Shown here piece by piece: positions 16,309 to 21,052 of a stretch of 64,000 bases of DNA. This DNA is from Rhizoctonia solani (Eukaryota > Basidiomycota > Agaricomycetes > Cantharellales > Ceratobasidiaceae): assembly GCF_016906535.1 (NCBI RefSeq), contig NC_057372.1, forward strand, positions 1,407,501 through 1,471,500. Direction: 5' to 3'. Made by a program: the position numbers and the translations under genes. How positions within the stretch are numbered: position 1 is the stretch's first letter; every line of letters begins with the position of its first letter. The notes below the pieces were generated by a model. The model saw nothing but the letters and a program-made list of their open reading frames with translations. It ran no database searches and had not been told where the DNA came from.

Positions 16309-18405
16309 TTAGCCCACAACGCGTGCAACCGTCGTCGAAATGCATCCACTATGCCAAGGGTCCCGAGGTTAGACTTTAGCTCTCCGCACCATTCGGACTT
16401 CTCACCTTGGCGCATCTACCGGGCAAAAGACTTCGGCTTCCCGTGCCTTTGTGTTTTGCAAGCCGATATAGTCCAGCCTAGGGTTTCCGCCTCGCATTTA
16501 GTCACCGACAAGTCAAGCAAAAGTACCAAGACTCACGGCACAGGGATGTAGTGGCGGTTGGGCATCCGATACGTTACCTCTATCACCGTCGGGTTCTGAT
16601 CCAGTACCTCTCGGCTCATACGGTGCATCGTCAACTGCACATCCTCCTCTTCATCAGTCGCAAACACCTCCAAACTCGTATCCCGCACCCGCTGCGCCAC
16701 GTCTGTGAATCGCATGGATTCGCCTAGTGCCGCGAGCTCTTCAATCCGCAACGGTACGCGAGGCAGGCCAAGCAAATACTCCACATCCATTTGTGCGCAA
16801 TACACTCCATCGTTGTGCTCGTTTACGTTGGTACATTCATCGCGTGAGTACCCGCTTCCCACCACCACCGTTTTCATCACTGGCGCTTCGATTAGTCTTG
16901 GCTTTTGGCGCATAAAACCAACGCACCGACAAGCCTTGTATGCTTGATCTCACATCGGCCATGACCACGTCTTGGGCTTCCTTGTCATCATCGTTAGGGC
17001 CCGCACTTGATTCCCTTCTCACGTCAATTGTCACCGAGCGTTTCTCCTCGCCGTCTCGAAGAAACGTGGATCCGTGCAGTCGGCCACGCACGGGTATGCG
17101 TCCCCATTTCACTTGTTGTATGACTATTCGTGCCGCACGGACGTGAACGTGAGTGCCCACAAGATGGGCCCCTAAGTGCAAGCCGAACAGCTCAGGTGAG
17201 AGGACATGCGGCGAAGTCTTGGCCAGCACTGTCAATCCAAGTTAGCTCCGAATCTGGAAAAGAGCCAATAACTTACCATAGCAGGTGTCCTTGACTAAAA
17301 TGGGCACAAATGAGATCCAGAGGTGGCAGTCAATTAGGGCAACTCACTAGGAACCGGAGCGACCCTCGTGTTCGAGCTGGGTCTCGTCCCTTCGAGCATG
17401 GCTGAGATCGCATACTCGACAATAAAATGATGTCCCTCATTGCGAATCACACGGCAGACACGAACCTAAACACGCATAAGCATGGTGCTGAGTGGGATGG
17501 CCATGACACATACAGATTCGGTCCCGTGCATCGATGACGTCAGTACAGGCGTCTCCCGGGAAGTATGACGAATATACGGTGCATGGGTCCGAGCATAGCG
17601 AGGCCCGTTAGCCGGTGGAGATGGCGATTTGCGCGAGTCGGTGTCCATGCGAGACAATCCAGACGGGTCGGACAAACGCCGATACTTGGTTGTGCTCGGC
17701 CCACCGTCGTCGCTCGAAATGAGCTCATCCTGATCTTGAAGAGCTTCTTGCCGCCTGAGTGGAGAGAGTGAACGCGACCGAGAGCGGGAATCCGAGTTGG
17801 AGCCGGAATCGGAGCGGAACCTGTGGCTATGCTGCTGCCGGGCTTGGGTGGGTGCGCTGTCTACTCCCGAGCCAGAGCCCGAGCCTGATCCCGACCCGGA
17901 AGCAGAGGCTGAAATATCGCCACCCGAGCCCGACGCGGCCGAAGTGGTTCCCGAATTGACGTACGGGAATGGTTGGGGTCGTTTTAGGGGTACTTTAGAA
18001 GCATTTATATCGAATTTTCCCTTGGTTGCTGTTGGAGTGCTTGTCGCCGACGACGCAGCTGAATGCATCTTTTTTTCATGGCGCTTTAATAGATCACTGC
18101 GAGGTACATCATGAGTCACGTGATTAAAACGGGGCGGTCCCACACCTCGGCTCACGCCAGTGGACACAGGCACAACCACCACGGAAGCGTTGGTCGATGA
18201 GAAGTGTGAACTTACCTTCGCCCAAAGGAATCATTACAAACGGGGCATTTGTATGGACGGTCGCCGGTATCTAGCGTGCGGATGGCGATCAGGCGCCGGG
18301 TCAGGGCAAAGGAAAATTGAACGCACGAGAGCGCATGTGTCGGGCGACATGCTGGGGGCGAGTAAACGTTGCCTGGCAGACGGGACATGCATGATCTCCA
18401 GCCAT
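16309..18405 (-). CDS. C2H2 zinc-finger protein fused in frame to a degenerate uricase domain
   Basis: Exons on the minus strand: 18327-18405, 18216-18270, 17514-18096, 17348-17465, 17277-17294, 16923-17228, 16537-16879, 16406-16477 and 16309-16348. The first three encode two C2H2 fingers (CPVCQATFTRPQHVARHMRSH and CPVCNDSFGRSDLLKRH). A disordered Ser-Gly/Ser-Arg linker follows. The third exon ends LTSSMHGTES, which aligns with the N-terminus of the neighbouring uricase (LTSARYGKDK). A 48-nt GTATGT...TTTAG intron joins it, phase 0, to VRVCRVIRNEG and the rest of a uricase fold (AKTSPHVLSPELFGLHLG, FLRDGEEKRSVTIDV, VQLTMHRM, PNRHYIPV, GLQNTKAREAEVFCP). Key residues are changed: the Lys of YGKD is Thr, the Thr of VATDS is Pro (VAPVP) and the DDR Arg is Gly (NDG). 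The enzyme is probably dead. Two overlapping genes remain an alternative to one fusion. Confidence 0.7.
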
Positions 18406-18764: not shown

Positions 18765-20088
18765 CTATGTGCGTGACACGGTCGCCGTAATGTATCCACT
18801 GCATATACTACATTAGATTGTACTACCGGTAGCATACACACTCACCTCGGAGCCTCAACAGGACAAAATACCTCTGCATCCTTTGGTTTGGTATTTGCCA
18901 GTCCGATGTAGTCGAGTCTACTCATCCGTGAGAGCGCGCTCATTGGAATGAGCCTAGACTTACGGAACGGGAATATAGTGCTTGTTCGGCAACCGGTACG
19001 AAATAGAGTTAGCCGTCGCGTTTTCTGCAATGAACTGTTGTGACATCTTGTACATCGTGGCCTGAATAGCGCGTCATAGTGACGAAATGACGTATGGTAT
19101 AAATTAGCTTACTTGAACGCTCGCGCTCTCGTCGGTCGCAAATGTCTCAAGTGTGATCTTGCGAACATTACTCTGCAGCTCCCTAAACTTAGCTTTTTCC
19201 CCTAGCGAGCCCAGTCCGTCAATAGTTATGGGTTCATTTGGTAGTTTGATACTGTAGTCGAGGTCAATCGATGTGGAGAAAATTCGGTCGTCGACCTCTG
19301 TTCAAGATTAATGTTAGACGTCAGATACTGGATTACGAAATTCGAGTCGGACTTGCCTACGAGCGTCGTGTATTCATCGCGTATGAAACCCTCGAACGCG
19401 GAGCCACTGCTCTTCAGCACTGCCAGAGAGGTTGGTCATTTCAACCGGGGTCGTGTTTCAACTACCTGCCTAGTAGGTCCTTGATACCAGCGGTGACATT
19501 GGCGGAAACTTTATCCTTACCCGCCGTTGCGTCCACCTCGACGTTAACGACAATCTTCTCTTCTCCATCACGCACAAACGAATGTTTATGCGGAGTACCT
19601 CGACATCAATTCGGGTCCATTTGAGTTGTTCGATAGTGATGAATGCCTTGTGAATGTGGGGATACTTGGTCACAAAGTGCGTGCCGAGATGAAGGCCGTA
19701 CAACTCTGGGGAGAGTACATGTGGGGATGTTTTGGCGATCACTGTGGCGCAGGGGATTAGTAATCGGAATATGCATTTTATTTGTAACTTACCATAACAG
19801 GTATTTTTGACTACACCGATGGAGATGAGTCTATAGGATGCTATGTTAATAAATTGAACTCACTCGAATCGGTTGCGACGACTACGCTGTTGTCTGCCTG
19901 TGTGTAGCTGGTCGCAATATCGCCTTCCAATAATGCGCGCACGTTGTACTCAACAACTGCATGCTTATCGCCCTCGCGCACTACGCGAAATACTCGGACC
20001 TGTCCATCGAGTGTGTATGATAGGCCCACGCACACAGGAAGACACTCACCTTGTCCTTGCCGTATCGTGCAGAGGTGAGGGAAGACAT
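18765..20088 (-). CDS. Uricase (urate oxidase)
   Basis: Urate oxidase converts urate to 5-hydroxyisourate in purine breakdown, normally in peroxisomes. The start is at 20088 (MSSLTSARYGKDK). Motifs in order are VRVFRVVREGDKHAVVEYNV, SYTQADNSVVVATDS, IKNTCYVIAKTSPHVLSPEL, HIHKAFITIEQLKWTRIDV, HSFVRDGEEK, SGSAFEGFIRDEYTTL, DDRIFSTSIDLDYS, ASVQATMYKM and LPNKHYIPVP, ending SGYITATVSRT. The Lys of YGKD, Thr of VATDS, Phe, Arg, Gln and the Asn/His of PNKH are all present, so it looks active. No canonical C-terminal peroxisome signal is seen. The intron at 19420-19469 has a GC donor. One base appears missing at about 19598-19602, between RIDVE and GTPHKHSF. The gene lies directly upstream of the degenerate copy, same strand: a tandem duplication. 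Confidence 0.93.
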
Positions 20089-20468: not shown

Positions 20469-21052
20469 ATGTTCCGCACGCAAGTGTTCCGCGCTGGTTT
20501 GCGCATCCAAAAGGCCAATGTGCGCCAAGCGTCGACTAAGTCGGCACAGGAGACTGCGCAGCAAGCGCTGAGCGTTGCCCAGAAGCAAGCAGAAAAGGCG
20601 CTCGAGGTCTCGAAGCAGGTTGGCGGAAGGGTTGGCGAGCGAGTGGGGGGCTGGCTCGGATGTAAGTGAAAATAGAGTGCATACAATCTAAAAGAGGCTG
20701 AGACGTGATGGGATAGCCTATCGCGAACCAGTAACATACAATTTGGCGGTCGCACGCGCATTCTTGCGCCAGGTATACGTTGCAGAAGGATTGGCACCTC
20801 CGACTTCGGTTGAAGCCTTCACATCAGCCTATCGCACTTTGCTTGAGCGCGCAAAGAACCCTGCCTACTGGAGGGAGATCTCTCAGTCGGGAGAATGGGC
20901 AAAGGTCGCATTGTATGGGGTCGAGGCATATGGCATCTTCCATATTGGCGAAATTAGTAAGTGTAAAGTTTTTATGTTCAGTACTATCAATTACTTATTA
21001 TCCGATCACTACAGTTGGCCGGAGACACATTGTTGGCTACAAACTGAACTGA
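20469..21052 (+). CDS. ATP20: Mitochondrial F1Fo ATP synthase subunit g
   Basis: Three exons (20469-20661, 20717-20956, 21015-21052) give 156 residues. The N-terminus (MFRTQVFRAGLRIQKANVRQ) is basic and Ser/Ala-rich like a mitochondrial targeting sequence. An amphipathic Ala/Gln/Lys helix follows. The conserved C-terminal part has YREPVTYNLAVARAFLRQVY, PPTSVEAFTSAYRTLLERA, WAKVALYGVEAYGIFHIGEI and IGRRHIVGYKLN, the last being the typical GxxxG-containing helix and end of the subunit g family. Subunit g is part of the membrane dimer interface that shapes cristae. All junctions are in frame. Confidence 0.93.

Follow-up and report, generated by a model that had tools for sequence, protein, structure and literature searches.

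The window analysed here is a stretch of 64,000 nucleotides (nt) from the genome of Rhizoctonia solani (40.7 Mb in 16 contigs), covering positions 1407501-1471500 of contig 3. It contains a gene, here called gene A, in which two C2H2 zinc fingers and a linker are joined to a uricase fold with replaced active-site residues, and which lies in tandem with a uricase gene, here called uricase B, in which these residues are intact. Uricase B is located upstream, with a gap of 359 bp to the ATG of gene A. The features of the two genes are the following.

16309..18405, minus strand: fused gene A, C2H2 zinc fingers, low-complexity linker and pseudo-uricase (exon model, splice ends, Pfam, relatives with the same architecture)
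18327..18405, minus strand: exon 1, ATG and C2H2 finger 1 (Pfam; intron position common to L010, a gene described below)
18216..18270, minus strand: exon 2, start of C2H2 finger 2 (exon model, Pfam, L010)
17514..18096, minus strand: exon 3, end of finger 2, Ser/Gly/Arg-rich linker and in-frame LTSSMHGTES (homology, a single frame in relatives)
17466..17513, minus strand: intron of 48 nt, GT..AG, phase 0 (same place as intron 1 of uricase B)
17348..17465, minus strand: exon 4, pseudo-uricase VRVCRV..VAPVP, with Thr57 replaced by Pro and Asp58 by Val (exon model and residue alignment)
17277..17294, minus strand: exon 5, pseudo-uricase, 18 nt, as is its counterpart in uricase B (exon model)
16927..17228, minus strand: exon 6, pseudo-uricase, with a phase offset of one base to exon 7 in the assembly (relatives read through)
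16537..16879, minus strand: exon 7, pseudo-uricase, positions of Phe159 and Arg176 replaced, Gln228, Asn254 and His256 kept (exon model and alignment)
16406..16477, minus strand: exon 8, pseudo-uricase (exon model)
16309..16348, minus strand: exon 9, C-terminus and stop codon (exon model)
18765..20088, minus strand: uricase B, active-site residues intact, ATG at 20088 and stop at 18765 (Pfam; pieces matching protein P0129)

Exon structure and domains of gene A

The limits given to gene A in an initial annotation made from the sequence, with the ATG at 18405 and the stop codon ending at 16309 on the minus strand, were retained in a model of nine exons based on splice signals and homology. The annotation also described the fingers and the linker as one open frame running into a uricase N-terminus. 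The domains were recovered as described: both fingers matched Pfam profiles above the cut-off (zf-C2H2 at residues 5-27 and zf-C2H2_4 at residues 33-56), the zinc ligands of both are all present in the translation, and exon 3 ends in frame with LTSSMHGTES, which is homologous to the N-terminus LTSARYGKDK of uricase B. The frame is not a single open one, however, since two more introns of 56 nt (18271-18326) and 119 nt (18097-18215) split the finger region. The 48-nt intron that the annotation had placed between the linker exon and the uricase domain has the proposed ends and phase, and follows GTES in gene A where intron 1 of uricase B follows GKDK. The Pfam Uricase profile (PF01014, cut-off 25 bits) matched exons 1-6 with 35.3 bits and exons 7-9 with 58.3 bits, so that both profile families expected from the annotation were found, and the Pfam scan gave no Zn_clus (Zn2Cys6) match in gene A. 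From the helix residues of the fingers, RPQHVAR and RSDLLKR, we presume on the basis of the recognition code that a G-rich site would be preferred.

All six introns in the uricase part of gene A have a counterpart in uricase B when the models are set side by side, with the phase of the exon 6/7 intron taken from the relatives, and uricase B has two extra introns. Likewise, both finger introns recur at the same positions in L010, an apparent C2H2-Zn2Cys6 factor gene at about 2513288 on contig 3, some 1.09 Mb from gene A, whose Zn2Cys6 domain was read from the translation. The shared introns and recognisable homologies indicate that gene A was built from two recognisable sources and is not a chance frame.

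Compared with the relatives, the assembled sequence has a phase shift of one base between exons 6 and 7, and the literal frame stops just past the junction. An alternative in-phase GT..AG intron of 52 nt (16902-16953) would drop residues that are conserved in the relatives. A one-base phase discrepancy is also present, near 19597, in uricase B, the neighbour described as intact in the initial annotation. The latter discrepancy is likely an assembly slip because P0129, a uricase from R. solani AG-1 IA, matches both flanks and reads through this place, and we infer a slip of the same kind in exons 6/7. The window has Gly in place of Phe159 (Gly-Ser replacing Arg-Asn/Asp, at about 16830-16880 on the minus strand), near the exon 6/7 discrepancy.

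The fusion in related fungi

Relatives were identified by a search with the window model, and 41 proteins for alignment were chosen from this listing and a listing of uricases, with 120 rows shown in each. The same fusion, for which the initial annotation had suggested a search, is present in related species: C2H2 and Uricase domains were found in one protein in R. solani (P0002, P0004, P0005 and P0006), Ceratobasidium sp. 423 (P0003) and Ceratobasidium AG-Ba (P0008), while P0001 is a single prediction in which B and A have been merged. We could thus rule out that the fusion is an artefact of the window assembly, since other records carry it. Among the matches listed, gene A was found only in Rhizoctonia, Ceratobasidium and close relatives; both genera belong to the Ceratobasidiaceae. 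The databases name P0002 and P0005 factor independent urate hydroxylase.

For 12 of the 13 relatives that include the linker, a single frame extends from TDSRKS to HGTES with 35-45 residues in between. Identities to P0002 or P0005 were 95-100% in the fingers where these are present (47% for the misannotated P0001), 59-90% in the linkers and 81-95% in the uricase halves. In Ceratobasidium 423 (FRC11_009872/009873) and UAMH 11750 (FS749_016151/016152) the locus tags of a fusion, or of a finger-less model of it, and of a uricase follow each other directly, which indicates that the tandem is conserved.

P0007 and P0010, which start inside the linker and inside the uricase part, respectively, are spliced but located on short contigs of 1,945 and 1,626 bases. 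These are probably complementary DNAs, since entries from the same source on long contigs (P0232, P0234 and P0235) are unspliced. P0121 is also spliced and located on a contig of 1,070 bases, which may be taken as a sign of transcription.

Active site, predicted fold and ancestry

To describe the active site we used the numbering of the Aspergillus flavus uricase, with residue roles as given in excerpts of PMC7792999, where the Lys10-Thr57 dyad is implicated in catalysis, Thr57, Asp58, Phe159 and Arg176 bind or line the urate analogue, and the active sites are formed between two protomers. Twelve A rows were compared (the window, P0001-P0010 and P0121), and five pocket residues are replaced. 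Lys10 is Thr, Thr57 is Pro and Asp58 is Val in 10 of the 12 rows each, the other two rows lacking the position in each case, and Thr-Pro stands in place of the dyad in each of the 9 rows that cover both positions. Phe159 is replaced throughout, by Arg in 11 rows and by Gly in the window, as is Arg176 (Gly in 12/12), and the loop preceding Thr57 is shorter. Asn254 and His256 are kept in all 12 rows and Gln228 in 11, with a gap in P0008. The initial annotation had noted the changes of Lys, Thr and Arg and the retention of Gln, Asn and His, all of which were recovered in the residue alignment; the changes at Asp58 and Phe159 are additional.

In the 33 of the 41 aligned sequences that are not A rows, Thr57, Asp58, Phe159, Arg176 and Asn254 are kept without exception, Lys10 and His256 in 32 (the exception being P0129, which has odd exon ends) and Gln228 in 32 (with a gap in P0148). 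The dyad and the Phe159 and Arg176 contacts that characterise an active uricase are thus absent from gene A, and judged from these residues its pseudo-uricase half would no longer be an enzyme.

The three-dimensional fold of uricase is retained in the predicted structure of gene A. The pocket, for which the initial annotation had suggested a structure check, is less certain: the predicted local distance difference test score (pLDDT) of residues 161-180 in the P0010 model is about 50, compared to 80-82 in the active paralogue modelled with the same 41 sequences, of which only 8 are A rows, a composition that may itself lower the confidence.

In a tree of 42 rows, the 11 A rows formed one fully supported clade (100/100) with a stem length of 1.32 changes per site. 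This clade grouped with the 11 uricases of type B from the same fungal family (99/93), which themselves formed a clade with support of 84/87. The A genes thus have a single origin, grouped with the uricase of their own family. For matched species pairs, the A/B distances were 0.197/0.207, 0.107/0.118, 0.085/0.079, 0.149/0.252, 0.165/0.213 and 0.291/0.183, where P0130, with a mis-spliced stretch, raises the B value in the second and fourth pairs and P0008 raises the A value in the last. After the long stem, the pseudo-uricase has therefore been about as conserved as the working enzyme. Read from protein data, to which the estimate of constraint is confined, fast change followed by enzyme-like conservation is characteristic of a new function rather than of decay.

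A possible source of the fingers was suggested by other Agaricomycetes. Among nine species listed for both families, a C2H2 protein and a uricase were located on contigs of exactly equal size in five, namely Thelephora ganbajun, Exidia glandulosa, Russula compacta (11,093 bases), R. earlei (24,880 bases) and Ramaria rubella, which is a sign of linkage, not of adjacency, the size given being that of the longest contig in the cluster. A pair of Scleroderma clusters with equal-sized contigs under two species names was left uncounted. Two of the five C2H2 proteins (P0045 and P0238) scored above the Pfam cut-off for Zn2Cys6 and three below. An ancestral C2H2-Zn2Cys6 gene may have been the neighbour of a uricase gene that was duplicated in tandem, one copy of which then fused to the fingers with loss of the Zn2Cys6 part. 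Such a duplication and fusion would explain the order B - fingers - A, and the linkage suggests that neighbours fused to form gene A.

As for the other copy, three pieces of uricase B match P0129 in 99 of 100, 43 of 43 and 140 of 150 residues, with mismatches at exon ends where the gene models differ. These matches make R. solani AG-1 IA, or close kin, the very probable source of the genome. By homology to P0129, two of its introns are of the GC..AG type, with donors GCAGGT after 19470 and GCAAGT after 19357. A search of the genome with PF01014, blind to introns, gave four matches among 6 candidates scored, all within genes A and B, and on this basis we rejected a third uricase at another locus. 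The Rhizoctonia uricases with a full C-terminus end in SRT, SRA, SRI or SRG and not in SKL, the classical peroxisomal signal. Divergently oriented from uricase B is a gene for the mitochondrial ATP synthase subunit g (PF04718, 60.7 bits) at about 20470-21050 on the plus strand.

What gene A may do

Gene A probably encodes an enzyme-derived DNA-binding regulator in which the pseudo-uricase half serves oligomerisation or regulation, because the fingers are intact, the catalytic set is lost, and fold and sequence are conserved. The proposal of a DNA-binding protein with a uricase-fold pseudoenzyme, already made in the initial annotation, is well supported by the occurrence of the fusion in several species, the clade-wide residue changes and the later conservation. 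The two fingers would bind DNA. Like true uricases, which are tetramers, the uricase half would make an oligomer of the factor, and it may offer a surface for regulation or a modified pocket. Genes for purine catabolism such as the adjacent uricase may be among the targets, and the position next to uricase suggests a role in purine regulation. A more specific version, which we consider rather improbable, is a single-chain metabolic switch: the pseudo-uricase half would co-assemble with uricase B or bind another ligand of the purine pathway in its remodelled pocket, and the fingers would read the level of the enzyme or intermediate directly at promoters. Co-assembly is conceivable, as each active site of uricase is made up by two protomers. 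The origin of such a switch would lie in the duplication and fusion of an ancestral pair of neighbours, a C2H2 factor gene and a uricase gene.

The features of gene A are found separately in known systems. The profile match over both halves places it in the fold family of uricase, the factor-independent urate oxidase (PF01014; A. flavus, PDB 1ws2 and 1r4s), from which it differs by the five replaced residues, the shorter loop and the N-terminal fingers and linker. Its C2H2 pair resembles the N-terminal pair of basidiomycete C2H2-Zn2Cys6 factors of the Gf.BMR1 type, with a nearly identical first finger, but there is no Zn2Cys6 match and the remainder is a uricase fold. Dual-specificity C2H2-Zn2Cys6 factors, including Cmr1, are treated in PMC5415576, of which excerpts were used. 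A parallel in concept is provided by the ascomycete repressors QutR, GaaX and TanX, which are derived from AROM and have an enzyme fold thought to be catalytically inactive (excerpts of PMC10512348). In gene A, too, the predicted enzyme fold is kept and catalytic residues are lost, and it would be comparable to these if it has a regulatory role. In contrast, these repressors are encoded beside a separate Zn2Cys6 activator, whereas gene A has a DNA-binding domain and a pseudoenzyme derived from uricase in one chain. A common role in the control of uric-acid use may be shared with UaY. This activator of the purine pathway in Aspergillus nidulans is of the Zn2Cys6 type, is induced by urate and is not known to have a uricase domain. 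Among open-licence papers in PubMed Central (PMC) no description of such a fusion was found; those drawn on, in excerpts, were PMC10512348, PMC5488104, PMC10512322, PMC5415576 and PMC7792999.

Several observations weigh against a conserved fused regulator with this history. The models of P0007, P0009 and P0010 begin after the fingers, and finger-less products may thus exist. The P0006 model departs from the common frame in the linker, and a spliced protein model is necessarily in frame; P0232-P0235 alone escape this bias, being open reading frames through the uricase start that continue into sequence that is intron in the window, and these start after the fingers. Between exons 6 and 7 the window copy of gene A is itself shifted by one base. 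Owing to the long stem, the place of the A clade in the tree is less certain, and the A distance exceeds that of B in 2 of the 6 species pairs (0.085/0.079, and 0.291/0.183 with the mis-spliced P0008). Finally, 4 of the 9 species did not share contig sizes (Amylostereum, Punctularia, Marasmius oreades and Taiwanofungus, the two rows for Taiwanofungus naming different strains).

The initial annotation went further and suggested a possible regulator responsive to urate or purine. In such a sensor the dead pocket would still bind the metabolite directly and switch the fingers. The retained Gln228, Asn254 and His256 and the tandem position beside a uricase, including the two pairs with consecutive locus tags, are as expected for a sensor, Arg at position 159 in 11 of the 12 rows might suit another, charged ligand, and repressors derived from AROM such as QutR have been hypothesised to be inactive enzymes that still bind the inducer (PMC10512348, in excerpt). 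However, Thr57, Asp58, Phe159 and Arg176, which bind or surround the purine analogue in A. flavus uricase, are replaced, as is Lys10 of the catalytic pair, the loop before Thr57 is shortened, and the pLDDT drops at residues 161-180. Judged from the residues, canonical urate binding by gene A is unlikely, and we regard direct sensing of urate or another purine as doubtful.

Alternatively, the locus may give two products, a finger protein and a pseudo-uricase started in the linker or at the Met of MTSSMHG/SSMHG, with the fusion as a minor or merely predicted product. P0010 starts with MTSSMHGTES and P0007 and P0009 with MHS, and retention of the 48-nt intron would make the finger-linker frame stop inside it. 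P0007-P0010 and P0232-P0235 still have a Met at the old uricase start, and all 13 rows displayed have the next one (SSM/STM). On the other hand, the window and P0001-P0005 have Leu at the old start, and the linker frame enters the uricase N-terminus in 12 of the 13 relatives. Only P0232-P0235, which are unspliced pieces, cover most of the finger-linker query at an identity of at least 60%, and no separate finger-linker protein of the Ceratobasidiaceae was found by name among the 56 rows listed (from 7,987 candidates of 0.55-1.75 times the query length). We consider two products from this locus quite improbable.

Decay of gene A into a pseudogene could be read from the phase error at exons 6/7 of the window copy and the lost catalytic residues. 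For the family this was rejected on account of the conserved halves and the enzyme-like distances; the relatives read through the junction, P0007, P0010 and P0121 are unbroken spliced copies, and uricase B has the same kind of slip, which is absent from another R. solani AG-1 IA record, all of which makes decay very improbable. Equally remote is uricase activity from a rearranged active site, as might be argued from the predicted fold, the three retained residues and the database label on P0002 and P0005, given the Thr-Pro dyad, the replacement of Phe159 and Arg176 in all rows and the second uricase in the genome with a full set of residues.

In the Ceratobasidiaceae a predicted DNA-binding domain has been joined to a presumably dead enzyme of purine catabolism and the fusion is conserved, while some copies are labelled as active urate hydroxylase in the databases. 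With a DNA-binding regulator derived from an enzyme, as we favour, gene A would be a clean case of an enzyme entering a probable regulator, with a long stem followed by renewed constraint and with both paralogues still adjoining. The linkage of C2H2 and uricase genes in other Agaricomycetes, should it prove to be true adjacency, would single out a candidate gene for the regulation of uric-acid use among basidiomycetes.
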